DNA of 64,000 nt from an uncultured Ectothiorhodospiraceae bacterium. GTDB lineage: Bacteria > Pseudomonadota > Gammaproteobacteria > UBA6429 > Thiohalophilaceae. Below, one piece after another: positions 16,836 to 64,000 of this stretch. The DNA lies in the NCBI GenBank assembly GCA_947259575.1, contig CAMYMU010000024.1, positions 1-64,000 on the forward strand. Direction: 5' to 3'. The position numbers were made by a program, and so were the translations under genes. Below the pieces are notes generated by a model, which saw only the letters and a list, made by a program, of their open reading frames with translations, was not told the DNA's origin and made no database searches. Position 1 is the stretch's first letter. Every line of letters starts with the position of its first letter.

Positions 16836-16855
16836 TTGATCTGATTCAATGCCTT

Positions 16856-16898
16856 CGATGGACGACCATCGTCGCTTAGTAATAACCGGGACGACCCG
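16856..16898 (+). promoter_or_regulatory. Guanidine-II (mini-ykkC) riboswitch
   Basis: Two short hairpins with the diagnostic ACGR tetraloop. The first is CGATGG-ACGA-CCATCG (16856-16871) and the second CGGG-ACGA-CCCG (16887-16898), joined by 15 bases. Paired ACGR hairpins just before a ribosome site define the guanidine-II class; guanidine binding in the two loops makes them dock and turns on translation. The carboxylase ATG is 18 bases after the second hairpin, with GGAC between. The element lies inside the operon, between cgdB and the carboxylase, so it may control only the downstream genes. Confidence 0.85.
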
Positions 16899-51067: not shown

Positions 51068-51739
51068 TTATTTGTAGTCGATATCTTTTAGCATTGTTTT
51101 TTTCGAGTCTTTAATCTCAGTGTAGGGTTTTAGCAATTTTTGTGCGGCAACAATTTGTGTCGAATGGATATGGCATCCTGGTGAGAGAATCGATCTCACA
51201 CCAATCAATGCGTCAGGTTCGATAGTAACCTGGTCAACAATTAAAAACATATCTCCATTATCTTTTTTGATTAATGCATGGGCGCTTAGCATGCATTCAG
51301 TGCCAAGAATAACCCCTTTGCCAATATTCAAGTGATAGCGATCCATGACCGTGACACCAGGTGCCCAAAATGAAAAAGGATTCACTTTTGCGCCCCACAG
51401 ATTCAGCCACATAGCATAAATACCTGGAATAACTCTGAGCGCTTCTTCAAGTATGGGAAAGCGATTGAATATTAGTTGTAGTTGGAAAAGTATCCACCAA
51501 AGCGTGTGTGTGCTGGACTCCGTACTGACGACACCTGTCGGTTTTCCAAACAGAAGAATGATCATTTTTGCCAACAGGGGCGGGACCAGATATACCCAGA
51601 TCGAGAAATATACGAACATCTTAATACTGCTGCCAGTTAAATAATAACTTAAGCTGATGCCAGCAATAATAAATAATACGCTGAAATAATTTAATGCAAC
51701 AATATGTGTGGCAAGTTTTGTGTTTGTAGGTGCAGTCAT
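51068..51739 (-). CDS. Membrane-anchored hexapeptide-repeat acyltransferase
   Basis: A 223-residue protein. Two or three membrane helices occupy about 15-75 (VALNYFSVLFIIAGISLSYY, then MFVYFSIWVYLVPPLLAKMI). The rest is a left-handed beta-helix acyltransferase domain (PGVTVMDRYHLNIGKGVILG, then VTIEPDALIGVRSILSPGCHI). It is the last gene of a three-gene minus operon with the diiron oxygenase and the NTF2-like protein. Acceptor and donor are unknown; an acetyl or acyl group on the cluster's product is plausible. Confidence 0.72.
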   Translation of the reverse strand: MTAPTNTKLATHIVALNYFSVLFIIAGISLSYYLTGSSIKMFVYFSIWVYLVPPLLAKMIILLFGKPTGVVSTESSTHTLWWILFQLQLIFNRFPILEEALRVIPGIYAMWLNLWGAKVNPFSFWAPGVTVMDRYHLNIGKGVILGTECMLSAHALIKKDNGDMFLIVDQVTIEPDALIGVRSILSPGCHIHSTQIVAAQKLLKPYTEIKDSKKTMLKDIDYK

Positions 51740-51748
51740 TCTATATAG

Positions 51749-52681
51749 TTATGAATGTACAGGGCTAACAAAGTAGAATTCGGGGTATTGCTGGAATAAC
51801 TTGTGACTGAAGGGCATAAGTTTAGGATCTTGTAGTGCTTCGAAGATGATTTTATCCTGTTTTTGACTTTTGATAGCTTTAATGATGCTGTTTTGGTGCT
51901 TTTTTAACTCAGGGAATTCATCAATCAATTTATTGATTACTCTTATGCCACCCCGTTTGGGTGTCATATAGTCGGCCATAAATTTGCTAAGAATAAATTG
52001 ATTAATTTTGATGGTTGTGGCGTTTGAGTTTTTGATTAACTTTTTCAACAAGCGGGCGCAGATAGCAACATGTCGTGACTCATCTTTTAGATGTTCACGG
52101 TGGGCTTGAATAAAGTTTGGTTCCAGCCTGATACCTGTATCATCATTCTTGTTAGTCATTTGTTTGGATATGCAGGTAGAGAATTCTTCCAGGATTAGCA
52201 AGATCCAGAGTAAAAAAAGAGAAATCCCAGGGGTTTTTGCTAGGAGCTGGAGTATGCCTCGTTCAAGATGGCTCAACTTAGCAAAGACCATATCGTTATG
52301 TTTATACAAAACTGGCTCAGCAAGCTTGTTTAAAGTCAGAAACATCTGGTAGTGCTGAACTTCCTCATTTTCCATTTCCTGCATACAGTAGATAAGTTCG
52401 CTGTTGTATTTAAAGTGCGCTAATTTACTGGTGCGAGCTAATACTAATGCAATGAAACGCGCTTCTAGTGTCATTAACTGCTCAATCGCGCGTACGGCAA
52501 AAAGCTGATTATAGCGAAGCTTCTGCTGTGGATTAAGCAAAGTATAGGCAGAGGTATGATATAGCTGAGTCAACCTCTCTGGGATAAATAATTTACTATG
52601 ATCGATTTCAGTATAATCAGTTTTTAGCGGTTTTTTATTTAAAACCGCGTTATATAACTGGTTGCTGTCAGGTATCTTCAT
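51749..52681 (-). CDS. AurF-like diiron oxygenase
   Basis: A 310-residue helical diiron protein. The ligand set of the p-aminobenzoate N-oxygenase (AurF) family is visible: E in LEARFIALVL near 74, E-x-x-H in NEEVQHYQ near 110, and the diagnostic H-x3-E-x2-H in HLKDESRH near 198, with a further E in LEEFSTCI near 165. AurF-type enzymes oxidise amines to nitro groups or carry out other O2-driven chemistry. Here it may modify the product of the neighbouring cluster. Direct substrate evidence is missing. Confidence 0.78.
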   Translation of the reverse strand: MKIPDSNQLYNAVLNKKPLKTDYTEIDHSKLFIPERLTQLYHTSAYTLLNPQQKLRYNQLFAVRAIEQLMTLEARFIALVLARTSKLAHFKYNSELIYCMQEMENEEVQHYQMFLTLNKLAEPVLYKHNDMVFAKLSHLERGILQLLAKTPGISLFLLWILLILEEFSTCISKQMTNKNDDTGIRLEPNFIQAHREHLKDESRHVAICARLLKKLIKNSNATTIKINQFILSKFMADYMTPKRGGIRVINKLIDEFPELKKHQNSIIKAIKSQKQDKIIFEALQDPKLMPFSHKLFQQYPEFYFVSPVHS

Positions 52682-52696
52682 TCGGTTATAAGAAAA

Positions 52697-53278
52697 CTAT
52701 TTTTTACGCATTCTTCCAACAAAAAATGCAATAAGCAGGCCGACAATTAATGCTGCAATAGAATAAGTCCATACTTTTGCTTGCACCTCATTGAGGACAA
52801 CGTTGTTGAAAGGATCAACCGAGAAATCAACAGAGACTACTTTCCAGTTGCCATTCTTTTTTACAACCGTTGCGACCCAGCGTGTATCGAATTCGTAAAC
52901 AGTGCCATCTTTTAATGTGAATACATCCTGGGTGCGACCAGATGCAACAATTGTGTTGCCATGGAATATAGCTTCTCCATCGATACTCGCTTTGGTTTTC
53001 TGGTCTAGCAGGGGAGCATTAGGTCCTTTGAACATTTTGTCGTAAAAGGCGACGATCGCGTCTTTGCCAACAGCAGTCTCTGTTGTCATAAATGACATCA
53101 CGGCTTGTTCATCAAGGTGTGCGAGCATTTTAGTTAGGTTTTTTTCATTCAGGCTTGTCTCAAAGTCTGTCAGTATGCTTCTCAGTAACTTTCGCTCGGC
53201 TTCGTTTGCATTATTCTCTGCTTCAATAGTGGCTGGTATTAGCGCGAATAAGCAGAGTGTCATGATAAAAGATTTCAT
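52697..53278 (-). CDS. Exported NTF2/SnoaL-like protein with C-terminal membrane anchor
   Basis: A 193-residue protein. A signal peptide ends near ATIEA-EN, a SnoaL/NTF2-like cone domain occupies about 25-155 (MLAHLDEQAVMSFMT, WVATVVKKNGNWKVVSVDF), and a C-terminal helix (VWTYSIAALIVGLLIAFFVG) ends in RMRKK, so it is probably anchored in the inner membrane with its body in the periplasm. First gene of the minus-strand trio. It may bind a hydrophobic cargo. Confidence 0.75.
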   Translation of the reverse strand: MKSFIMTLCLFALIPATIEAENNANEAERKLLRSILTDFETSLNEKNLTKMLAHLDEQAVMSFMTTETAVGKDAIVAFYDKMFKGPNAPLLDQKTKASIDGEAIFHGNTIVASGRTQDVFTLKDGTVYEFDTRWVATVVKKNGNWKVVSVDFSVDPFNNVVLNEVQAKVWTYSIAALIVGLLIAFFVGRMRKK

Positions 53279-53300
53279 AAGAGTGGCTCCATTTTAGTAA

Positions 53301-53314
53301 TGTGCGGTTGCACA
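53301..53314. promoter_or_regulatory. Small inverted repeat TGTGC-GGTT-GCACA in the divergent promoter region
   Basis: A 5-bp perfect dyad 23 bp upstream of the NTF2-like gene start, inside the 200-bp divergent gap to the Rieske gene. It could be a repressor site for the minus-strand trio. No matching regulator is known. Confidence 0.3.
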
Positions 53315-53479
53315 TCTTTTTGTTGTGTCCATGCTGCTGTTTGTCTTTCTTATAGTATTGCTTGTGTTAATGCGATGCAAACCATAGTACACTTAACTTT
53401 GCTTCAGGCGGATAAAGAATAAGAATATAGTAATATTGAAAACAAGTTTTTAGGATATTAAACACTATTCAGTATAATA

Positions 53480-54544
53480 ATGATGCGATCGGAACAACAG
53501 CATGCCTTTCCTCGTTCATGGTATCCACTATGCCGATCAACAGATCTCAAACGTGGACAAATTATAGCTCGTCACGCCTTTGGCCATAAGCTGGCCGTAT
53601 TTCGCACCCAACAAAATCAACTTGGCGCAGTCGATTCCCGCTGCTGTCATATTGGTGCCGACCTGAGTCGCGGCTTCATTGACGATGATTTTCTGGTCTG
53701 TCCGCTACACAATTGGGCTTATGATGTTCAGGGAAAGTGTCAACGTATTCCCTGTGGTCGCAGCCAAGAGGAGATACCTGTAAGAGCAAAACAACCAGCT
53801 TTATATTGCCAAGAACACTATGGTGTAGTGTATGGTTTTCTTGGCGATAGCCCAGACTTTCCTCTCCCATATTTTCCTGACACGGAAAATTATATTGCCT
53901 CTAATGTGCGTATTATTGAGTTCGATGCCCCTTATGAAATGGCGGGTGCGAATTCGTTTGATGAACAACATTTAGCAGCAGTACATCGGCGACAGGTGAT
54001 AGGCGAGCAGCAAATTACTTCATTATCGCCGAATCATTTTGCAATTGAATACCGCGCAAATGTCGCACCGCACACACTGTACGATAAGTTTTTGCATCTA
54101 ATTGGCAAAAGTAGAGTGCATATGGCACTAGATTGTTGGGGAGGTAACTTATTACTGTTTAAGCATATTGGCACAGCGAATCAAATGATTATTTCATTGC
54201 TGCCTGTTAATGCCACTCAATCACGTGCGTTTATTACGACAGTCTTAGCAAAAAGGGGTAACAGGCTGTTACGACCATTCCAATGGTCAGCTGTTCGGTT
54301 GCTGAATATATTCACCATGTTGTTTGTCAAACAGGACGTAAAAGCGCTGCAGGATATCGATTTTGCATTTACCACGATGTTGCCGGAAGCCGATAATACA
54401 ATGATCAAGTGGTATCAATACTGGAAACGCTTGCCTCGCAATACGCTGACTGGCTCAAACTCGACAACAGTAAAATCGGTCACGTCAACAGTAAACGAAT
54501 CGAATCCCACAAGTATGAAACCAGAGAATATTGCACAAATCTAG
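53480..54544 (+). CDS. Rieske [2Fe-2S] mononuclear-iron oxygenase
   Basis: A 354-residue alpha-subunit-type Rieske oxygenase. The Rieske cluster ligands are C-x-H in RCCHIGADLSRG near residue 56 and C-x2-H in FLVCPLHNWAYD near 75. The catalytic iron triad D-x2-H-x4-H is seen in FDEQHLAAVH near residue 160. Such enzymes hydroxylate or desaturate small organic substrates with a separate reductase, which is not visible in this window. The first gene of the plus-strand part of the cluster. Confidence 0.88.
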   Translation: MMRSEQQHAFPRSWYPLCRSTDLKRGQIIARHAFGHKLAVFRTQQNQLGAVDSRCCHIGADLSRGFIDDDFLVCPLHNWAYDVQGKCQRIPCGRSQEEIPVRAKQPALYCQEHYGVVYGFLGDSPDFPLPYFPDTENYIASNVRIIEFDAPYEMAGANSFDEQHLAAVHRRQVIGEQQITSLSPNHFAIEYRANVAPHTLYDKFLHLIGKSRVHMALDCWGGNLLLFKHIGTANQMIISLLPVNATQSRAFITTVLAKRGNRLLRPFQWSAVRLLNIFTMLFVKQDVKALQDIDFAFTTMLPEADNTMIKWYQYWKRLPRNTLTGSNSTTVKSVTSTVNESNPTSMKPENIAQI

Positions 54545-54675
54545 ACACAGCTACCGATTTAACTAACTAAACAACGTTTAGGGCTAACTTGCTGAAATAT
54601 TTAGTGAATTATGGTTTTATCTTGTTTCGCCCCTATGCTAACTTAGCAGGTGTAAGCACCGGTCCGTAATTCCCC

Positions 54676-54707
54676 CCTAAAACGGATGTGTACCTAAAAC
54701 GGATATG
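54676..54707. repeat. Two 15-bp direct repeats, 17 bp apart, upstream of the cluster operon
   Basis: CCTAAAACGGATGTG (54676-54690) and CCTAAAACGGATATG (54693-54707) differ at one position. They stand 45 bp before the next coding start, inside a 190-bp gap between the Rieske gene and the operon. Their number, spacing and place suggest binding of a regulator in two registers. Confidence 0.5.
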
Positions 54708-54751
54708 AATAAGAGGCCATCAGTAAGCATTACTTGGCTGACATCGATAAT

Positions 54752-55489
54752 ATGAGTGATTACAGCACTGTCATAAAGAAAATTAACGACCTGGATGAAG
54801 CTACACGCAATCAGATAGTTGAGATCTATCTGACTTATTATGATGGTAGTAGCCGTTCGCGAGTGCTATCTGATCTTGAAGCAAAGACAGAAGTACTTTT
54901 GTTGTTCTTTAAAGGACAATTAATTGGATTTACCACCTTATTGCTTTACTCACGTAGCTGGCAGGGCGCGCCGATTCGAATTGTATATTCAGGAGATACG
55001 ATTGTGGAGCGGGAACATTGGGGCCAGCAAGCACTTGCCTTTGCCTGGATTGCGCGGATGGGCGAGATAAAAAATGAGCAACCTGAGGTACCACTTTACT
55101 GGTTTGTGATTATTAAAGGGCACCGAACGTTTAAATATTTATCGGTGTTTGGCAAATCATTCTATCCTCATTGGTCGGGGTCTCGTCCTGATCTGAAATT
55201 ATTGGCTGATGCTCTGGCAAAGGATAAATTCGGAAACGATTACAATCCTGAAACAGGAATTGTGGAATATGCAATATCACAAGGGCATCTAAAGCAAGAG
55301 ATAGTATGCCCAACCGATGAAGAAATGGAAAAAGACTCGGTGAAGTATTTTCTACGCGCAAACCCAAACTATAAATTGGGTCATGAATTAGTTTGCCTCT
55401 GTGAATTGGAAGAGGAAAATATGAAGCCATTAGCTAAACGGATTTTTAAGAAGACAAGCGATGATAGATTCCTGGCAGCAACTGTCTAA
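54752..55489 (+). CDS. Conserved protein of unknown function, possibly GNAT-like
   Basis: A 245-residue soluble protein. The strand-helix order (EVLLLFFKGQLIGFTTLLLYS, then IRIVYSGDTIVEREHWGQQAL) hints at an N-acetyltransferase-like fold, and the GQQALAF segment sits where the acetyl-CoA loop would be, but no sure motif exists. An in-frame TTG at 54734 is an alternative start. The gene overlaps the GH3 gene by 29 bp, so the products are probably made together. Confidence 0.55.
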   Translation: MSDYSTVIKKINDLDEATRNQIVEIYLTYYDGSSRSRVLSDLEAKTEVLLLFFKGQLIGFTTLLLYSRSWQGAPIRIVYSGDTIVEREHWGQQALAFAWIARMGEIKNEQPEVPLYWFVIIKGHRTFKYLSVFGKSFYPHWSGSRPDLKLLADALAKDKFGNDYNPETGIVEYAISQGHLKQEIVCPTDEEMEKDSVKYFLRANPNYKLGHELVCLCELEEENMKPLAKRIFKKTSDDRFLAATV

Positions 55490-57014
55490 GCAGAACAATA
55501 AAAACAATTTGACTGATGATCTTCAACGTTGTCAGCAGCACTGGCTTTTTGATTGCTTAAAACAAAATAGCGATACTGAGTACGGCAAAGAGTATCGATT
55601 TAATGAGTTGCCTAGCATTAGAGCCTATCAAGATGCTACGCCGATTGTTTCCTATCCGGAAATCTCAAACTATATCGATAAAATAAGTGAGGGTAGGGCT
55701 GATATTCTTTTTGCAGGTCATGCGGTAGCATTTGAACGTACTAGTGGCAGTACCCAGGTGCAAAAAATGATTCCGTACTCTCCACAGGGATTGAATGACT
55801 TCCGAAAAGCGATCCTCCCCTGGTTGGCCAGTTTAGTTGAGACATTTCAAATAGAGTCGGGCAGCGCTTATTGGGCGATTAGTCCGGCAACACGGCAACC
55901 AGAAGTTACTCAGGGAGGAGTATCAGTAGGGCTCAGCGATGCAGCATACCTGGGTGAAGATCTTATTCCGTTTTTTATGTCTACTTCAGCTGTCCCTCAT
56001 TGGGTTGGGAGCCTGTCAGATATGCGTGAGTGGCAGTTAGCAACGCTTTATCATTTACTCTGTAACCGCGAGCTGGTTTTAATTTCTGTATGGAGTCCCA
56101 CTTTTTTACTTGCCTTACTGGATGGGATAGTCGAACGGCGTGCTGAGTTAGAAAGCGTTTTGTTAAATGGAGTCAGTGTGAAGGATCAGTATTTGGCGCC
56201 AGATCAACAAACGTGTGAATTATTGCAGACTTATTATAAGAGCAATGATATTTCCTGCCTGTGGCCACAGCTAAAAGTTGTAAGTTGCTGGGCTGATGCA
56301 TCATCACAACCTTTTTATCAACAATTAGTCGAAACAATGCCCACCGTAGCGATTCAAGCGAAAGGCCTGTTGTTAACCGAAGGGGTGGTGACGGTTCCCA
56401 ACCAATATAACCAGACTGTTTTAACCGCTGACAGCGGGTTTTATGAATTCGAGGTGAGTGACGGTACGATTAAACTGGCGCATGAACTGGTTCAAGGAGA
56501 ACAGTATGATGTCATCATGACTACAGCAAGCGGTCTATATCGTTATCGTACTGCAGACAAGATTGTCTGTGATGGTTATTCATCTGGTTTACCGGTATTA
56601 CGATTTATTGGCAGAGGCGATTTGTGTTCAGATCTGGTCGGTGAAAAATTGACAGAAGCCTTTGCCTCGACATGCCTGGAGGGTATTCCTGGATTTAGGA
56701 TGCTGATTCCAGCATCTGATCAACAACCGGGCTACCAGCTTGTTCTAGATAAACAGATTTTTAAAAATACAGCAGGATTTGAACTGTCGAATCTATTAAA
56801 AGAAGTTTCGGTGCGTCTCTTTGAAAATCCACATTATGCTTATGCATGCAAGATTGGCCAGTTGGCAGAGTTGAAACCTCTTATGCTTGTAGATCCACTT
56901 ACAAAATATTTAAACAGCCAGGAAAACATAGGGGTGCGTATGGGTGATATTAAAGTACCATCCTTATGTATTAAATCAGATCTTTTTGAAGCAGAGATGG
57001 GGACAGCGGCATGA
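55461..57014 (+). CDS. GH3-family adenylating amide synthetase
   Basis: A 517-residue member of the GH3 (auxin-responsive promoter) family within the ANL superfamily. ATP-site motifs are present: ERTSGSTQVQKMIPYS near residue 90, and YRYRTADKI with LRFIGRGDLCSD near 360-390. Plant GH3 enzymes activate a carboxylic acid as its adenylate and join it to an amino acid. In this cluster it is the only visible acid-activating enzyme and probably forms an amide or ester in the product. Substrate not predictable. Confidence 0.85.
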   Translation: MIDSWQQLSKQNNKNNLTDDLQRCQQHWLFDCLKQNSDTEYGKEYRFNELPSIRAYQDATPIVSYPEISNYIDKISEGRADILFAGHAVAFERTSGSTQVQKMIPYSPQGLNDFRKAILPWLASLVETFQIESGSAYWAISPATRQPEVTQGGVSVGLSDAAYLGEDLIPFFMSTSAVPHWVGSLSDMREWQLATLYHLLCNRELVLISVWSPTFLLALLDGIVERRAELESVLLNGVSVKDQYLAPDQQTCELLQTYYKSNDISCLWPQLKVVSCWADASSQPFYQQLVETMPTVAIQAKGLLLTEGVVTVPNQYNQTVLTADSGFYEFEVSDGTIKLAHELVQGEQYDVIMTTASGLYRYRTADKIVCDGYSSGLPVLRFIGRGDLCSDLVGEKLTEAFASTCLEGIPGFRMLIPASDQQPGYQLVLDKQIFKNTAGFELSNLLKEVSVRLFENPHYAYACKIGQLAELKPLMLVDPLTKYLNSQENIGVRMGDIKVPSLCIKSDLFEAEMGTAA

Positions 57015-58417
57015 AAATAGTTTTAATTTCACCAAAAGGTCCATTGTATCGCTTCAAAGGTGGCCTATTTAAAAAATCACTACGTTACCAGCCGTTAACA
57101 TTAACAACGTTAGCAGCACTTATTCCTGAAGATATTGATGTAGAGCTTGTGTTAATTGATGAGGGGATCGAGACGATCCCTGAGAGCCTTGAAGCCGATC
57201 TGGTCGCCATGACGGTTATCACGGGTACGGCCAGGCGCGCCTATGAATTATCAGAACAATTTCAACAACGTAATATACCCGTGGTGTTGGGCGGGCCGCA
57301 TGTCACATTAGTACCTGACGAGGCACAACAACATGCAAATGCGATTTGTGTGGGTTATGCAGAAGAGACATGGCCGCAATTACTGCGTGACTTTGTAAAG
57401 GGTGAAATGCAGGCCGTTTATAAACAACGACCTGATATGTCGCTTGGTTGGGATGCCTTCCCTAAAAGAGAATTGATGAATAAACGCAATTTTCTTACCC
57501 AGGCAGTCTTTGAGGCAACGCGCTCATGTATGCATGACTGCGAGTTTTGTGTGGCACCTGCGGCGTGGGGGAGAAAGCAGTACCAACGTCCTATCGACTG
57601 GATTATTGAAGATATTAAACAGGTAGGGCAGAAAAAAATTATATTTATTGATTTAAATATCATTTCTGACAAGCAATATGCAAAGGAATTGTTTCGGCGC
57701 CTGATTCCTTTGAATATCAAATGGTTTGGCCTGTCCACCGTGCTGCTTGCCCATGATGAAGAACTAAAAGAATTGTTAGCGAGAAGTGGTTGCAAGGGGT
57801 TGTTGCTTGGTCTTGAGACAGTTAGTGAGCAAAGCCTGAAAGATGCAAAAAAGCGCTTTAATGCATCAGTGGGATACAAAGAAATTATTAAGGATCTGCA
57901 TAAGCTTGGGATATCCATACAAGGATGTTTTGTATTTGGACTTGACCACGATACTCCCGATGTATTTGATACCACGGTAGAGTTTGCTATCGATGCGGGC
58001 ATTGACCTACCACGCTTTGCAATCCTGACGCCATTCCCGGGCACACCTATATATAATAGTATGATGGCACAGGGACGTATTTTGACCCATGACTGGGAAC
58101 TATACGACGGCCAACATGTTGTCTTTCAGCCACGTAATATGTCAGTGCAAGAACTCGCAGTAGGCCATGAAGAGGCATGGAAAAAGGTCTATCGCTGGTC
58201 ATCAATTGCAAAACGCCTGTGGAATGCCAGAAACTTCCGGCCGCTCGCGATGAGCGTGAATCTAGGTTACCGGTTTTATGCTCACCACTTACATGAGTAC
58301 TACACCTGTGACGTGCAAATAAACACGGTATTCTCAAATCCGTTTCCTGGACTGGTACAACAAAATCCAGACCCTAATATGGAACCCGTCACCAGGAATA
58401 AGATTGTATGCGGATAA
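57011..58417 (+). CDS. B12-binding radical SAM enzyme, copy 1
   Basis: A 468-residue BchE-like protein. The N-terminal about 150 residues form a Rossmann-type cobalamin domain (LVAMTVITGTARRAYELSE, VVLGGPHVTLVPDEAQQHA), without the DxHxxG cobalt-ligand motif. The radical SAM core has C173-x3-C177-x2-C180 in RSCMHDCEFC. A C-terminal helix-rich domain follows. Members methylate unreactive carbons or make rings. It overlaps the GH3 gene by 4 bp and the next radical SAM gene by 10 bp. Confidence 0.92.
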   Translation: MKIVLISPKGPLYRFKGGLFKKSLRYQPLTLTTLAALIPEDIDVELVLIDEGIETIPESLEADLVAMTVITGTARRAYELSEQFQQRNIPVVLGGPHVTLVPDEAQQHANAICVGYAEETWPQLLRDFVKGEMQAVYKQRPDMSLGWDAFPKRELMNKRNFLTQAVFEATRSCMHDCEFCVAPAAWGRKQYQRPIDWIIEDIKQVGQKKIIFIDLNIISDKQYAKELFRRLIPLNIKWFGLSTVLLAHDEELKELLARSGCKGLLLGLETVSEQSLKDAKKRFNASVGYKEIIKDLHKLGISIQGCFVFGLDHDTPDVFDTTVEFAIDAGIDLPRFAILTPFPGTPIYNSMMAQGRILTHDWELYDGQHVVFQPRNMSVQELAVGHEEAWKKVYRWSSIAKRLWNARNFRPLAMSVNLGYRFYAHHLHEYYTCDVQINTVFSNPFPGLVQQNPDPNMEPVTRNKIVCG

Positions 58418-59763
58418 CCATCATACATCCTGCGATTGGCCACCGTGTCGGTGAAAAATATATCCGTTCCTGGCAAATGGAACCGTTACCGGCGGCGGCG
58501 GTGGCAGGTTTAACCCCACCTGATATTGATGTGAAGTTCTATGATGATCGCTTAGAGACTATTCCCTTCGACGAACCAACCGATGCGGTGGTGATGTCGA
58601 TCGAGACCTATACTGCCAAACGGGCTTACCAGATCGCCAGTGAATACAGGAAACGTAAGATACCTGTTATCTTCGGCGGCTTTCACGCAACACTGGTACC
58701 TGAAGAGGTTGAACAATATGCCGAAGCTATTGTAATTGGTGAAGCAGAGATGGTCTGGAACGAGGTCATTGATGACCTGCGACACGGTACCCTAAAAAAA
58801 CGCTATCAGATAGATAGTCGTCCCGATCTGAGTGAAATCAAAGTGGATCGTTCCATCTTTCAAGGCAAGCGTTATTTACCAATCGGTTTAGTCGAGACCG
58901 GGCGGGGTTGTAAGTTTCCATGTGATTTTTGTGCGATCCAGACTTTTTTTGATCGCTCCCATCGGCAGCGACCTGTTGAAGACATTATTGCTGAAGTTCG
59001 AACGCTCAAAGATAAAAATCGACTATTTTTCTTCGTCGATGACAATTTTGCCGGCAACATAAAAACAGCTAAACCTTTGCTTAAGGAATTGGCAAAGCTC
59101 AAGGTCCGCTGGATTACTCAAATGAGTATTAATGCGGCGCATGACGAAGAATTTTTATCGTTATTAAGCAGAAGCGGTTGCAAGGGCGTATTAATCGGTT
59201 TTGAAACGCTGAATCCAGAAAATCTCCGTTCGATGAAGAAAAACTTTAACATGATGAAGGGTGGCTACGAGCAGGCAATGCAAAATCTTAACCGGTATAA
59301 AATAAGAGTCTATGCGACTTTTGTATTTGGTTATGAGCATGATACTCCTCAGTCATTCTCCGATTCCGTTGAGTTTGCAATCGAACAAAAATTCTATATA
59401 GCCGCCTTCAATCATTTAACCCCTTTTCCTGGTACGCCACTTTATAAACGACTTGAGCAAGAAGAGCGATTGCGCTATCAAGCCTGGTGGCTTGATGATG
59501 CATATCGTTATAATGATGTACCGTTTAACACTAAACTATTGCAGCCAGAGGATATAACCCGTCTGTGTGTGCAGTCCCGAAAACGCTTCTATTCGTTCTC
59601 GAATATTATCAAGAGGGGGCTCTCTCGGACTAATCGTAGTGATGCCTTCATGTTTAGGAATTTTTTCCCAATAAACTTTATGCACGGCAATGAAATTAAC
59701 AAGCGTAATGGCTACCCATTAGGTGATGAGGCCTGGTCAGGCCGGTTGCTGGTGGCAGATTAA
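58408..59763 (+). CDS. B12-binding radical SAM enzyme, copy 2
   Basis: A 451-residue protein with the same layout: cobalamin-type domain (VMSIETYTAKRAYQIASEYR, VIFGGFHATLVPEEVEQY), then C168-x3-C172-x2-C175 (GRGCKFPCDFC) for the [4Fe-4S] cluster. It is clearly paralogous to copies 3 and 4 and more distantly to copy 1. The LETLNPENLRSMKKNFN region near 270 may touch the substrate. Substrate unknown; distinct from BchE of photosynthetic cyclase by context. Confidence 0.92.
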   Translation: MRITIIHPAIGHRVGEKYIRSWQMEPLPAAAVAGLTPPDIDVKFYDDRLETIPFDEPTDAVVMSIETYTAKRAYQIASEYRKRKIPVIFGGFHATLVPEEVEQYAEAIVIGEAEMVWNEVIDDLRHGTLKKRYQIDSRPDLSEIKVDRSIFQGKRYLPIGLVETGRGCKFPCDFCAIQTFFDRSHRQRPVEDIIAEVRTLKDKNRLFFFVDDNFAGNIKTAKPLLKELAKLKVRWITQMSINAAHDEEFLSLLSRSGCKGVLIGFETLNPENLRSMKKNFNMMKGGYEQAMQNLNRYKIRVYATFVFGYEHDTPQSFSDSVEFAIEQKFYIAAFNHLTPFPGTPLYKRLEQEERLRYQAWWLDDAYRYNDVPFNTKLLQPEDITRLCVQSRKRFYSFSNIIKRGLSRTNRSDAFMFRNFFPINFMHGNEINKRNGYPLGDEAWSGRLLVAD

Positions 59764-59769
59764 ATATCC

Positions 59770-60906
59770 ATGGGTAATTTAGCGACACATGAGCCTCATG
59801 AGCTGCAGCAGGAATATAAAGCAGGTGGTGTCGTTTATCGCAGAGTGACACTTGATGATGACGAATCGCTACGCCAGGTATTACGTCAGATCAGCATGGA
59901 CTCGTGGGTAAATGTTAGCACGGAGCATGAACCCTCTTATTTTGAATCGACAAATTTATTTGGCGAAACCGAGACTATTCTTGCCTCGACTGATGATAAT
60001 AAACAATCAACCGTTGGGATCTGCTCATCTGTATCGATGCCGGTCTATATAAATGGTGTCGCAAAGCAAGCAGGGTATTTAGGTGAACTACGGGTATTAC
60101 CTGAGTACTGCCATAAACTTTCAGTGATCCGCAATGGGTTTAAGTCTGTGCAGGCACTGAATCAACAACATCCCTATTGGTTTACCAGTATCGCGAAAGA
60201 AAATAGTATTGCGCGTCGCTTACTTGAGGCAAACTTAAAAGGTATGCCTGCGTATCAGCCCAGGGGCGAACTGTTAACGATGGCCTTGCCGGTGAGTGAC
60301 AAGCTTAAAAAAAATCTACTTGTTCATGCGACAGAAGACGATATTCCAGCGCTGGTTGAGTTTTACCGATCACATAATGCAGGATTTCAATATGCGCCAG
60401 TGATTAGCGAGCAATGGTTGCGGGGTTTAGATGGCCAGTCTGGTTTAACGATTCAGGATTTTTGGTTATTAAAAGTTAATGGAAACATCAGCGCCGCATT
60501 CGCGATCTGGGATCAGCGTAAATTTAAGCAATCCGTGGTGCGCGGTTATCGGTTTCCATTAAATATGTTTCGCCCACTATATAACCTCTATGCTAATTTA
60601 TCCGGGCGTGTCACTTTACCTGCCGTTGGTGAAAAGATTGACTATATATTTATAGCCTTTCTTGCAGTTGCTGGTGAAGCCAGGGAGCACACTAAAACCA
60701 TTATATCGACCGCACGAAAACTCGTGAAAGAAAAGGGGGCGAATGTCGCCATGTTAGGTGTCTCAAAGCTAAATCCAATCACAAGCTATTTAGAAACGAT
60801 ACCTCATCATGCCTACTCTACAGTAATCGAGAGTGTCACCTGGCCAAAACATGCTGAACAAAAAATAGATAATCGTCTTGTTCAACCCGAGATTGCCGTA
60901 ATATGA
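59770..60906 (+). CDS. GNAT-like acyltransferase, probable two-domain protein
   Basis: A 378-residue soluble protein without sure family. Two similar segments are visible: residues 20-185 (VVYRRVTLDDDESLRQVLRQ, YLGELRVLPEYCHKLSVIRNG) and 205-365 (LLVHATEDDIPALVEFYRSH, FAIWDQRKFKQSVVRGYR). The VLPEYCHKLSVIRNG motif resembles the acetyl-CoA-binding turn of GNAT enzymes, so a double GNAT fold is likely. It sits between radical SAM copies 2 and 3 with 6-bp and 1-bp gaps and may acylate the product. Confidence 0.6.
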   Translation: MGNLATHEPHELQQEYKAGGVVYRRVTLDDDESLRQVLRQISMDSWVNVSTEHEPSYFESTNLFGETETILASTDDNKQSTVGICSSVSMPVYINGVAKQAGYLGELRVLPEYCHKLSVIRNGFKSVQALNQQHPYWFTSIAKENSIARRLLEANLKGMPAYQPRGELLTMALPVSDKLKKNLLVHATEDDIPALVEFYRSHNAGFQYAPVISEQWLRGLDGQSGLTIQDFWLLKVNGNISAAFAIWDQRKFKQSVVRGYRFPLNMFRPLYNLYANLSGRVTLPAVGEKIDYIFIAFLAVAGEAREHTKTIISTARKLVKEKGANVAMLGVSKLNPITSYLETIPHHAYSTVIESVTWPKHAEQKIDNRLVQPEIAVI

Positions 60907-60907
60907 G

Positions 60908-62236
60908 ATGGCTATGCATAAAAATCGATTAAAACGATTGACGCTACTCCGGCCAAACATGGGGGATTACCGTTCCACTGATGGCTTACCACCAATGTCG
61001 ATGTCGATTCTAGCCGCACGTACACCGGCGGATGTTGAGATAACATTCTACGATGATAAGATTGAAGTCGTTCCTGAAGATGATACTCCCGATCTTGTCG
61101 CCATTACGGTCGAAACCTTTACGGCAAGGCGAGCCTATGAATTAGCCGCACGCTATCGTGATCGTGGTATATCTGTTGTGATGGGTGGCTACCACCCAAC
61201 CTTTTTACCCGAGGAAGCACTACAGCATGCAGACGCCATAGTCATTGGTGACGCCGAAGGTGCCTGGGAGCGATTGCTGGATGATTTTAATCATAATCGT
61301 CTCGAGCGAACATACCAGGGTGGTACTTCTGCTTCACTCAATGATTTCCGACAGGATAAACGAATTTTTGCAGGCAAGAAGTATATGCCCGTCGAGCCAG
61401 TTCAATACGGCCGAGGATGCCGCTTTGCCTGTGATTTTTGCTCGATTCGCGCATTTTACAAAGAGAGCCTGAGGGTACGTTCCATTGATAATATGGTTGC
61501 AGAGTTAACAACACTAAATCGACGTAAGCTGATTTTTTTTGCAGATGATAATTTATTTTCGTCACGGGCAGAACTGGAAGCGCTATTGACAGCTCTCAAG
61601 CCACTTGGTTTGCGCTGGTCATGCCAGATCAGTATTGATGTGGCACGCGATGAAACCTTGCTGGATAAAATGGCAGAATCAGGCTGCGTCTTTGTCCTGA
61701 TCGGATTTGAATCATTGTCGCGAGACAACCTTAAACAAATGGGCAAGCCATGGAATCATGTTGCGGGTGACTATCAACAAGTTGTGCGTAAATTGCATCA
61801 GCGAAAGATTGCTGTTTATGGCACTTTCGTGTTTGGTTATGACTATGATACGATTGATACGATTCAGCAAAGTCTTGACTTTGCACTGGATGCAAAACTC
61901 GAGATAGCCAATTTTAATCCGCTGACACCCACGCCTAGTTCACCACTCTATGATCGCCTTGCCCAGGAGGGTAGATTAATATCACCAACCTGGTGGTTAG
62001 ATGAAAACTATCGCTATGGCGATCCTATTTTCAGGCCAAAATTGATGGATCCCGATGAGTTTGCACATAAATGTTATGAAGCTAAAAAGGCCTTCTACTC
62101 ATGGCGTTCAATTGGTAGTCGTGTACTGGGCACGGAGGCGGGTATTAATGTCTTCAGGACCGGTATTGTAAGCCTGGCCAATCTTATTTCACGACGCGAA
62201 GTCTTCCGCAAACAATATCGTCCATTAGGTGCTTGA
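60908..62236 (+). CDS. B12-binding radical SAM enzyme, copy 3
   Basis: A 442-residue protein. Cobalamin-type domain (LVAITVETFTARRAYELAA, VVMGGYHPTFLPEEALQHA) and radical SAM cysteines C171-x3-C175-x2-C178 in GRGCRFACDFC are intact. The C-terminal part contains TWWLDENYRYGDPIFRPKL, present in nearly the same form in copies 2 and 4 (WWLDDAYRYNDVPFNTKL and WWLHPEYRFNQAAFVPKN). It begins 1 bp after the previous stop codon. Confidence 0.92.
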   Translation: MAMHKNRLKRLTLLRPNMGDYRSTDGLPPMSMSILAARTPADVEITFYDDKIEVVPEDDTPDLVAITVETFTARRAYELAARYRDRGISVVMGGYHPTFLPEEALQHADAIVIGDAEGAWERLLDDFNHNRLERTYQGGTSASLNDFRQDKRIFAGKKYMPVEPVQYGRGCRFACDFCSIRAFYKESLRVRSIDNMVAELTTLNRRKLIFFADDNLFSSRAELEALLTALKPLGLRWSCQISIDVARDETLLDKMAESGCVFVLIGFESLSRDNLKQMGKPWNHVAGDYQQVVRKLHQRKIAVYGTFVFGYDYDTIDTIQQSLDFALDAKLEIANFNPLTPTPSSPLYDRLAQEGRLISPTWWLDENYRYGDPIFRPKLMDPDEFAHKCYEAKKAFYSWRSIGSRVLGTEAGINVFRTGIVSLANLISRREVFRKQYRPLGA

Positions 62237-62256
62237 GTGAGAGGCGTGACAAGCTA

Positions 62257-63588
62257 ATGAAGATTACGTTTATCAAACCCACAATCGGGCGTCGCGAACA
62301 CAGTCTTTATGTCGACGAAGGACGTATGGAGCCTTTGATGCTGGCGGTGCTGGCAGGCTTAACACCTAATGATGTTGATGTGGCGCTTTATGATGACAGA
62401 ATGGAGTCCATTCCATTTGATGAAGAAACTGATCTGGTTGCGATTACGGTAGAAACATATACAGCGCGACGTGCTTATGAAATCTCCGAAGAATATAGAG
62501 GCCGTGGTGTGCCTGTCATTCTAGGCGGAATGCACGTCACCTTGTTGCCGGATGAGGCAGCGCAACACGCCGACAGCATCTTTATCGGCGATGCAGAATC
62601 TCTCTGGACAACCGTGGTGGATGATGCACGACGTGGAAAACTACAATCACGTTATGTTGCACCACCTGGTGTAGCCCAGTTTCCAAATGTTTTACCCAGA
62701 CGTGATTTATATAAGGGCAAGGGCTATTTACCGATGTCGCTAATGCAATATACACGCGGCTGTCGTTTCGCCTGTAGCTTTTGTGCGGTCAGTAAGTACT
62801 TTGATAAAAAACATTATATTCGTCGTATCGATGAGGTGGTTAGAGAAATATCTGAACAAAACCGGAAATTTATTTTCTTTATCGATGACAATATTGCAAC
62901 CGATCGTAAGGCATTAAAAGAGTTGTGTCGTGAGCTAATACCTTTGAGAATTCATTGGATAAGTCAGGCCAGCTTGGATGTCACAAAAGATCAGAACTTG
63001 ATGAAAGCGATGGCTGACAGTGGTTGTATTGGTCATGTAATGGGCTTTGAGACGATAACACCCGGAAGTCTCCGTGATGCGCGTAAAGCACCCAATATCT
63101 CTGGATTTTCGAATTATCAGCACGAAGTCAGAATTTTGCGTGAATTCGGTATGCAAACCTGGGCAGCGTTTACGCTCGGCTACGATAACGACACCTACGA
63201 TTCGGTATTAGCGACCATGGAGTTTGCCTTAAAAAGCAAATTCACATTTGCTGCATTTAATATCTTGATGCCATATCCGAATACGCCACTTTATAATAAA
63301 TTGGAAAGCGAGGGCCGTTTGTTATATGACGGTAAGTGGTGGTTGCATCCAGAATATCGCTTCAATCAAGCCGCGTTTGTACCAAAGAATATGGCGCCTG
63401 ATGAACTAACCGATGCCTGTCATATAGCACGTAAGAAGTTTAATAGTGTCTTTTCTTTGATGTACCGCTTCTCCGATATGCAAACAAACCTGAAAACACT
63501 CTGGCGTGCGGCATCCTATTGGCGCTATGCGACATTATTCAGGAAAGAGCTGTATAAAAAACATAAGATGAGATTTGGTCTTAAATGA
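62257..63588 (+). CDS. B12-binding radical SAM enzyme, copy 4
   Basis: About 443 residues, starting MKITFIKPTIGRREH. Cobalamin-type domain (LVAITVETYTARRAYEISE, VILGGMHVTLLPDEAAQHA) is followed by C169-x3-C173-x2-C176 in TRGCRFACSFC. ATG 62257 is preferred, with GAGAGG upstream; a TTG at 62233 would overlap copy 3. It overlaps the next membrane protein gene by 4 bp, thus the operon continues beyond the window. Confidence 0.92.
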   Translation: MKITFIKPTIGRREHSLYVDEGRMEPLMLAVLAGLTPNDVDVALYDDRMESIPFDEETDLVAITVETYTARRAYEISEEYRGRGVPVILGGMHVTLLPDEAAQHADSIFIGDAESLWTTVVDDARRGKLQSRYVAPPGVAQFPNVLPRRDLYKGKGYLPMSLMQYTRGCRFACSFCAVSKYFDKKHYIRRIDEVVREISEQNRKFIFFIDDNIATDRKALKELCRELIPLRIHWISQASLDVTKDQNLMKAMADSGCIGHVMGFETITPGSLRDARKAPNISGFSNYQHEVRILREFGMQTWAAFTLGYDNDTYDSVLATMEFALKSKFTFAAFNILMPYPNTPLYNKLESEGRLLYDGKWWLHPEYRFNQAAFVPKNMAPDELTDACHIARKKFNSVFSLMYRFSDMQTNLKTLWRAASYWRYATLFRKELYKKHKMRFGLK

Positions 63589-64000
63589 GCAAAAGGGTAC
63601 TAGAACTCTATCAATATATCGCGCCAGCGATATTGGCACCTTTGTCATTCTGGTTATGGTGGCGTGTTTATGATGGTAATATCCATCTGGTTTTAATCGC
63701 CTGGCTGCTGCCCGTGTTGTATGCCTATATTGTCCCTGCAGTCGGGACTAATTATTTGAAGGTTTGGGAATTCGATACACGTTTTCGAGTAGGACGATTC
63801 CGGCCACATCATGGCTTTGTGTTTGGTAGTGCGACAGCAATGATTGCCTGGCTCTGTCATACAGATCCAGCCACAAATTACTTCGACGTTTTTCGTTATG
63901 GTTTTATCATGGCAGCGGTGTTGGGCTTTTGGAATATTATTTATGACATTAAAGCCATTCGGAATGGTATTTTAAAAGTATACAATCAACCCTGGGCAGA
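63585..64000 (+). CDS. Membrane protein of the radical SAM cluster, cut by window end
   Basis: An open frame from ATG 63585 through the last base. The 138 residues seen begin MSKRVLELYQYIAPAILAPL and contain hydrophobic stretches at about 12-28, 33-58 and 85-125. No family recognised. The ATGA overlap with radical SAM copy 4 places it in the same operon; it could be a transporter or lipid-linked enzyme. The C-terminus is outside the window. Confidence 0.75.
   Translation, partial: MSKRVLELYQYIAPAILAPLSFWLWWRVYDGNIHLVLIAWLLPVLYAYIVPAVGTNYLKVWEFDTRFRVGRFRPHHGFVFGSATAMIAWLCHTDPATNYFDVFRYGFIMAAVLGFWNIIYDIKAIRNGILKVYNQPWA

Follow-up and report, generated by a model that had tools for sequence, protein, structure and literature searches.

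A widespread gene cluster family built on a GH3 ligase and two GNAT-fold acyltransferases, proposed to make amide-linked, lipid-like metabolites

The window analysed here, the first 64,000 nucleotides of a 296-kb contig (CAMYMU010000024.1, assembly GCA_947259575.1) of an uncultured Ectothiorhodospiraceae bacterium (Thiohalophilaceae), carries at its end a biosynthetic gene cluster that starts at position 51,068 and has relatives in several phyla. We propose, with a probability of about 0.55, that it represents a widespread, horizontally spread cluster family organised on a three-enzyme acyl-amide core, formed by a GH3 ligase and the acyltransferases GNAT1 and GNAT2, and that its product is an amphiphilic, amide-linked, lipid-like metabolite, either membrane-associated or exported. 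A preliminary description of this DNA had already seen an uncharacterised cluster for a lipid-like or small amide product, lacking polyketide synthase (PKS), non-ribosomal peptide synthetase (NRPS) or carrier protein genes. Both points held, and the fatty-acid desaturase, the PAP2-like protein and the N-myristoyltransferase (NMT)-like enzyme described below strengthen the reading of an inferred product of this kind.

All 12 genes of that description are present at about the coordinates it gave, and its tight packing was found on the plus strand, with neighbouring genes overlapping by 4 to 29 bp or lying no more than 6 bp apart. However, a gap of around 190 bp separates the Rieske gene from GNAT1, and the cluster does not end at position 64,000 but runs on for 2.4 kb, through the rest of a membrane protein, a fatty-acid desaturase, an anchored SnoaL-like protein and a PAP2-like protein, up to around 66,422 in window-equivalent coordinates. 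The cluster consists of the following 15 genes, four of them lying wholly or partly beyond the window:

51068..51739, minus strand: hexapeptide-repeat-like protein, accessory (N-terminal hydrophobic segments; Pfam Hexapep 21 bits, below the cut-off of 27)
51749..52681, minus strand: AurF-like non-haem diiron oxygenase, accessory (Pfam AurF above cut-off)
52697..53278, minus strand: SnoaL-like protein with C-terminal hydrophobic anchor, accessory copy (Pfam SnoaL_2/DUF4440 above cut-off; hydrophobic segment 165-183)
53480..54544, plus strand: Rieske oxygenase, accessory (Pfam Rieske 79 bits)
54734..55489, plus strand: GNAT1, core single-domain GNAT-fold acyltransferase (predicted GNAT fold)
55461..57014, plus strand: GH3 acyl-acid amido synthetase, core (Pfam GH3 and GH3_M)
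57011..58417, plus strand: rSAM1, cobalamin-type radical S-adenosylmethionine (SAM) protein (Pfam Radical_SAM and B12-binding above cut-off)
58408..59763, plus strand: rSAM2, cobalamin-type radical SAM protein (Pfam Radical_SAM 64 bits)
59770..60906, plus strand: GNAT2, core tandem-GNAT protein, N-myristoyltransferase-like, with invariant C-terminus (AlphaFold2 model, structural alignment)
60908..62236, plus strand: rSAM3, cobalamin-type radical SAM protein (Pfam Radical_SAM and B12-binding above cut-off)
62233..63588, plus strand: rSAM4, cobalamin-type radical SAM protein (NCBIfam BchE/HpnJ-like matches under cut-off; CxxxCxxC)
63585..64253, plus strand: membrane protein of 222 aa (the window ends at 64000)
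64226-65179 (window-equivalent), plus strand: fatty-acid desaturase, past the window (Pfam FA_desaturase 88 bits; three His boxes)
65183-65851 (window-equivalent), minus strand: SnoaL-like anchored protein, second copy, past the window (Pfam SnoaL_3)
65787-66422 (window-equivalent), minus strand: PAP2-like protein, past the window (Pfam PAP2 just below cut-off; PSLH and HHILD motifs)

Gene linkage and distribution

A scan of 84,980 GTDB (r220) genomes with a GNAT1 alignment returned 287 relatives, from which 80 loci were kept and their neighbourhoods read, with 10-kb flanks and genes assigned by profile-based calling; the counts of gene order given below cover these 80 loci, the window and a Citrobacter plasmid. 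Conserved neighbourhoods were indeed found: the exact order GNAT1-GH3-rSAM1-rSAM2-GNAT2-rSAM3-rSAM4, with mostly overlapping genes, recurs in 23 loci belonging to Pseudomonadota, Acidobacteriota and Campylobacterota. The same core order is borne by a 159-kb plasmid of Citrobacter portucalensis, and the Citrobacter cluster had no match in 5,426 genomes of E. coli at the sensitivity of megablast.

Homologues of the cluster genes are linked rather than scattered among relatives. Among 40 genomes of the order, a GH3 of the cluster's clade occurs in three (G000, G027 and G031), strong homologues of rSAM4 are confined to the clusters of G000 and G027 (a single further match was 28% identical, E 6e-38), and AurF is present in two, both times adjoining the GH3 gene. 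GNAT1 was detected in 6 out of 398 genomes of an even phylum-level sample of Pseudomonadota. The cluster family is, in short, widespread, horizontally distributed and patchy, present in several phyla and on one plasmid. Its carriers include cultured strains of Citrobacter, Budvicia, Malikia, Pseudomonas, Burkholderia and Cupriavidus, in which knock-out combined with metabolomics is feasible.

A 20.7-kb cluster region assigned to "Chryseobacterium sp. 18061" was one base off that of "Citrobacter sp. 18056" (loci L048 and L049), likely through cross-contamination of assemblies, and Bacteroidota were therefore left out of the counts.

The acyl-amide core

The protein encoded at 55461..57014 is by sequence a member of the GH3 family, with a Pfam GH3 (PF03321) match of 129.8 bits over residues 15-296, an additional GH3_M match, and the nucleotide-binding motifs TSGSTQVQK and GLYRYRTAD kept. 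Characterised GH3 enzymes have small acids as substrates. The nearest solved structures are the plant enzymes GH3.15 and JAR1, and these matches to solved amide synthetases, together with the precedent of OlsH, a bacterial GH3 enzyme that makes N-acyl ornithine and accepts diverse fatty acids (PMC12493201), are the grounds for reading the cluster protein as a putative amide synthetase.

That precedent also raises the question of an ornithine-lipid-like pathway, in which the GH3 protein would make N-acyl amino acids in the manner of OlsH and the other genes would decorate an ornithine-type lipid. The fatty-acid breadth of OlsH (PMC12493201) and a weak match to the OlsH lyso-ornithine lipid synthetase model (NF052613) over GH3 residues 9-123 point in this direction, but this match reaches 39.9 bits against a cut-off of 620, and clusters of the window's type (type A, below) showed no OlsI-like alpha/beta-hydrolase, so that we regard such a pathway as improbable.

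Neither GNAT1 nor GNAT2 of the window had a Pfam match above cut-off, but the GNAT assignments of the preliminary description were borne out by AlphaFold2 models, both with a mean predicted local distance difference test (pLDDT) score of 94. The GNAT1 model consists of one GNAT domain, has GCN5 as its best match (Z 12.8) and is similar to acetyltransferases including GCN5, NatD and AAC(2'). GNAT2 is modelled as a tandem GNAT, with its best Z of 24.7 to an N-myristoyltransferase over 311 residues; among the matches listed (VIA), all 50 aligned entries were NMTs (Z 23.2-24.7, 305-315 residues), and the absence of HisAT-type proteins from these best matches does not exclude such proteins. In the rows listed, residue 378, with which the predicted model ends, is paired with the C-terminal residue of NMT.

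The position of this terminus is invariant. NMT uses its terminal carboxylate as catalytic base (PMC7048800), and NMT-type double GNATs, for which predicted bacterial structures have been reported, are defined by a C-terminus ending in the active site (PMC12219266). All 57 GNAT2 sequences, with identities down to about 20%, have exactly four residues after a conserved E/D, a fixed end that is absent from ten other protein families of the cluster, whose ends vary. The predicted model of GNAT2 has the two GNAT domains per chain and the NMT-like fold of the NMT-type double GNATs (PMC12219266), whereas by sequence it is not an NMT proper: it has no Pfam family at E values up to 10, and its homologues gave only generic GNAT matches. 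We propose that GNAT2 N-acylates an amine by an NMT-like mechanism. Such a protein would provide a bacterial counterpart, amenable to testing, of an enzyme regarded for many years as eukaryotic.

As NMT acts on peptides, the resemblance could also be taken to mean that GNAT2 is a bacterial N-myristoyltransferase of a protein or ribosomal peptide, with the radical SAM enzymes methylating it as in pathways of ribosomally synthesised and post-translationally modified peptides (RiPPs), from which cobalamin radical SAM enzymes are indeed known; weak NCBIfam matches to ApyD and rSAM_ocin are in line with this idea. Against it, the abutting or overlapping core genes leave no space for a precursor in the operon, the small open reading frames (ORFs) 5' of GNAT1 are conserved between near relatives only, the radical SAM proteins score far under the cut-offs of the RiPP models, and peptides do not agree with the small acids that characterised GH3 enzymes use. 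A RiPP pathway was rejected, no conserved small ORF having been found, and modification of a protein or peptide in general has little probability.

Radical SAM enzymes and exchangeable modules

The four B12 radical SAM proteins of the preliminary description all carry the CxxxCxxC motif (at residues 173, 168, 171 and 177 of rSAM1 to rSAM4, respectively) and a GGxHxT motif in the B12-binding region. Pfam Radical_SAM gave 49-64 bits in the three proteins scanned with that model, B12-binding was above cut-off in rSAM1 and rSAM3 and below it in rSAM2, and rSAM4 was assigned through NCBIfam and its 39-42% identity to rSAM2 and rSAM3. By these motifs and domain matches, rSAM1-4 are assigned to the cobalamin-type radical SAM class, which is marked by CxxxCxxC and an N-terminal B12-binding domain. 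A CobS gene in the host genome is consistent with cobalamin supply.

In a tree of 133 radical SAM proteins, rSAM1, rSAM2, rSAM3 and rSAM4 each formed one group (support 0.99, 0.91, 1.0 and 1.0), which indicates that their divergence predates the spread of the cluster and that all four were retained. Their retention since that early divergence implies four different putative reactions, of types not readable from sequence, and four orthologous cobalamin enzymes per operon make an unusually dense set for chemistry on unreactive carbons. None of these proteins reached any curated equivalog cut-off of NCBIfam, the best scores being 92.5 bits for HpnJ (TIGR03471, cut-off 578), 94.8 for BchE (TIGR02026, cut-off 481) and 83.2 for the ladderane radical SAM model (TIGR04072, cut-off 360). 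The Citrobacter clusters (L008:24085-25398 and L052) contain a fifth radical SAM gene on the opposite strand, nearest to rSAM1 (40%).

The GNAT1/GH3/GNAT2 core is what is conserved across cluster types, other clusters having fewer or no radical SAM genes and usually a Rieske gene. Type A, that of the window, shows the seven-gene order followed by the membrane protein, desaturase, SnoaL and PAP2 genes in varying order; shorter forms with rSAM1-rSAM2 were found in Desulfovibrio and one Synergistales genome, some of them on short contigs. Type B (Pseudomonas, Burkholderia, Cupriavidus, Robbsia) is devoid of radical SAM genes and comprises GNAT1-GNAT2, hydrolases, desaturases, GH3 and Rieske genes. 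Type C, which includes the cluster of the window's congener G031, carries Rieske, GNAT1, GH3, GNAT2, an RnfD-like/FG-GAP/UnbV fusion, desaturases, AurF and a hexapeptide protein, and type D (relatives of Accumulibacter, cyanobacteria) ferredoxin, AurF-like, fatty-acid hydroxylase, Rieske and amidohydrolase genes.

Several of these loci show further particularities. In the type C locus L012 (5130-7859), an RnfD/NQR2-like membrane domain is fused to FG-GAP repeats and a UnbV/ASPIC domain; domains similar to the parts of this fusion occur separately in enediyne clusters. The Pseudomonas type B loci L050, L051 and L062 adjoin, as judged from their sequences, a type VI secretion vgrG-like gene and associated genes. 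Finally, one Acinetobacter baumannii record (L009:13991-18876) has a minimal arrangement, GNAT1-GH3-(TolC-like)-GNAT2, beside EmrAB-type pump genes and an amidase.

The operons of two loci, L021 and L026, match that of type A as far as GNAT2, beyond which a Rieske gene and C17 take the place of rSAM3-rSAM4-membrane protein. Among the 46 loci with enough flank, Rieske was absent from 19 of the 20 with rSAM3 and rSAM4 and present in 22 of the 26 others (Fisher p 7e-8, raw). When the GH3 tree is taken into account, this apparent mutual exclusion comes down to four independent pairs (sign test p 0.25), and it is thus kept as a lead, a suggestion from gene content.

Of the 25 clusters with all four radical SAM groups, the window's own is the only one that has a Rieske gene within the stretch read, and there this gene belongs to a separate upstream module partly common to the G031 cluster. 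For this reason, Rieske, AurF and the hexapeptide protein are accessory and not core. The calls of GH3, AurF-like and Rieske proteins in the preliminary description are all supported by Pfam. The protein at 51749..52681 is classed as an AurF-like diiron oxygenase, with PF11583 at 43.4 bits (cut-off 29.6) and the ExxH motifs EVQH and ESRH at residues 107 and 201. The motifs CxH-CxxH and DxxHxxxxH are present in the Rieske protein, which is most closely related to its counterparts in the L026 and L021 clusters (27-31%). As for the hexapeptide-type acyltransferase, its Pfam match is weak, but homologues with 38-40% identity adjoin GNAT1/GH3 in L012, L069 and L085.

Concerning its surroundings, the cluster is flanked by genes named from sequence as a monomeric isocitrate dehydrogenase and a GGDEF protein, and its G+C content is like that of the remainder of the window. 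With this ordinary G+C and no mobile-element genes noticed nearby, a recent mobile acquisition by the window strain was rejected, although the distribution is patchy and one relative is plasmid-borne. A role in anti-phage defence was rejected too, PADLOC giving a single weak generic radical SAM match. Control by a cobalamin riboswitch was likewise rejected, none being detected within the window or the next 18 kb. Far from the cluster, a Guanidine-II (mini-ykkC) riboswitch (16854-16898, plus strand, 33.1 bits against a cut-off of 32) lies just 5' of a gene for a biotin-carboxylase/urea-carboxylase-like protein of 1201 aa (16917) and 3' of two urea-carboxylase-associated-like genes.

Proposed product and relation to known systems

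The catalytic steps of the pathway are all inferred from families and folds. GH3 would adenylate a carboxylic acid, for which a fatty acid or an N-acyl amino acid is probable, and couple it to an amino compound; GNAT2 would transfer an acyl group, probably long-chain, from coenzyme A (CoA) or acyl carrier protein to an amine, the carboxylate at its own C-terminus serving as base, and GNAT1 would attach a second acyl group. The four cobalamin enzymes could then introduce four distinct changes at unactivated carbons (C-methylation or oxidation/cyclisation, which sequence does not tell apart), the desaturase and, in the window, also the Rieske and AurF-like oxygenases may introduce unsaturation or oxygen, and the membrane-bound PAP2 and SnoaL-like proteins would act at the end. 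The changes made by the radical SAM enzymes, the desaturase and the oxygenases would fall on the chain or on the head of the molecule. Genes for the desaturase, the anchored SnoaL-like protein, PAP2 and small membrane proteins recur in the clusters; the desaturase, PAP2, the membrane protein and the SnoaL-like proteins are membrane-embedded or anchored, which suggests that the late steps take place at the membrane.

Some observations weigh against this proposal. The GNAT2 C-terminus is placed in the active site through structural alignment of a predicted model, and the GNATs could use acetyl-CoA instead of fatty-acyl-CoA. In addition, the core trio of Acinetobacter adjoins EmrAB and TolC-type genes with no desaturase, a setting that a secreted amphiphile fits better than a membrane lipid. 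This same export system, the likeness of GNAT1 to GCN5, NatD and AAC(2') acetyltransferases and the patchy, once plasmid-borne distribution typical of secondary metabolism would also agree with a secreted small amide that is not a lipid, such as an antibiotic or a signal. In that case, the GNATs would transfer acetyl or short-chain acyl groups and the desaturase would have a substrate that is not fatty. We consider this less likely, as the closest folds to GNAT2 are long-chain NMTs and several cluster proteins are embedded in or anchored to the membrane.

The amphiphilic, amide-linked metabolite is thus preferred. More tentatively, the family may represent an undescribed class in which a GH3 ligase and an NMT-type acyltransferase with a C-terminal base make new amide lipids, and in which anaerobic cobalamin radical SAM enzymes and O2-dependent oxygenases can replace each other as tailoring modules, thereby fitting a single scaffold to oxic and anoxic conditions. 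The cluster family appears to be undescribed, its enzyme families being known: no description of its gene set was found in the open-access literature (subscription literature lay outside that search), where the nearest characterised pathway, that of OlsH, shares the GH3 step only. The family is not rare, yet it is without the PKS, NRPS or carrier genes that would attract notice.

Its components can be set beside four known systems. The plant GH3 acyl acid-amido synthetases (JAR1, GH3.12, GH3.15) have the family and recognisable nucleotide-binding motifs in common with the cluster GH3 but are distant from it (profile E about 1e-29 to 1e-25), so their substrates are not transferable. The OlsH/OlsI ornithine-lipid pathway of Singulisphaera (PMC12493201) uses a bacterial GH3 ligase to yield an N-acyl amino acid for a lipid, as proposed here; in contrast, the cluster shows no OlsI and adds two GNATs, four radical SAM enzymes, oxygenases and a desaturase. 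With eukaryotic NMT and the NMT-type double GNATs (PMC12219266), GNAT2 shares the predicted fold and a C-terminus superposed on the catalytic one of NMT, from which it differs by its identity of about 10-14%, its lack of a Pfam sequence match and its location within biosynthetic clusters. Finally, HpnJ, BchE, the ladderane-associated and the PhpK-type enzymes are like rSAM1-4 in their broad class, CxxxCxxC motif and B12-binding domain, whereas rSAM1-4 remain under 100 bits against cut-offs of 360-600 and stand as four ortholog groups in a single operon.

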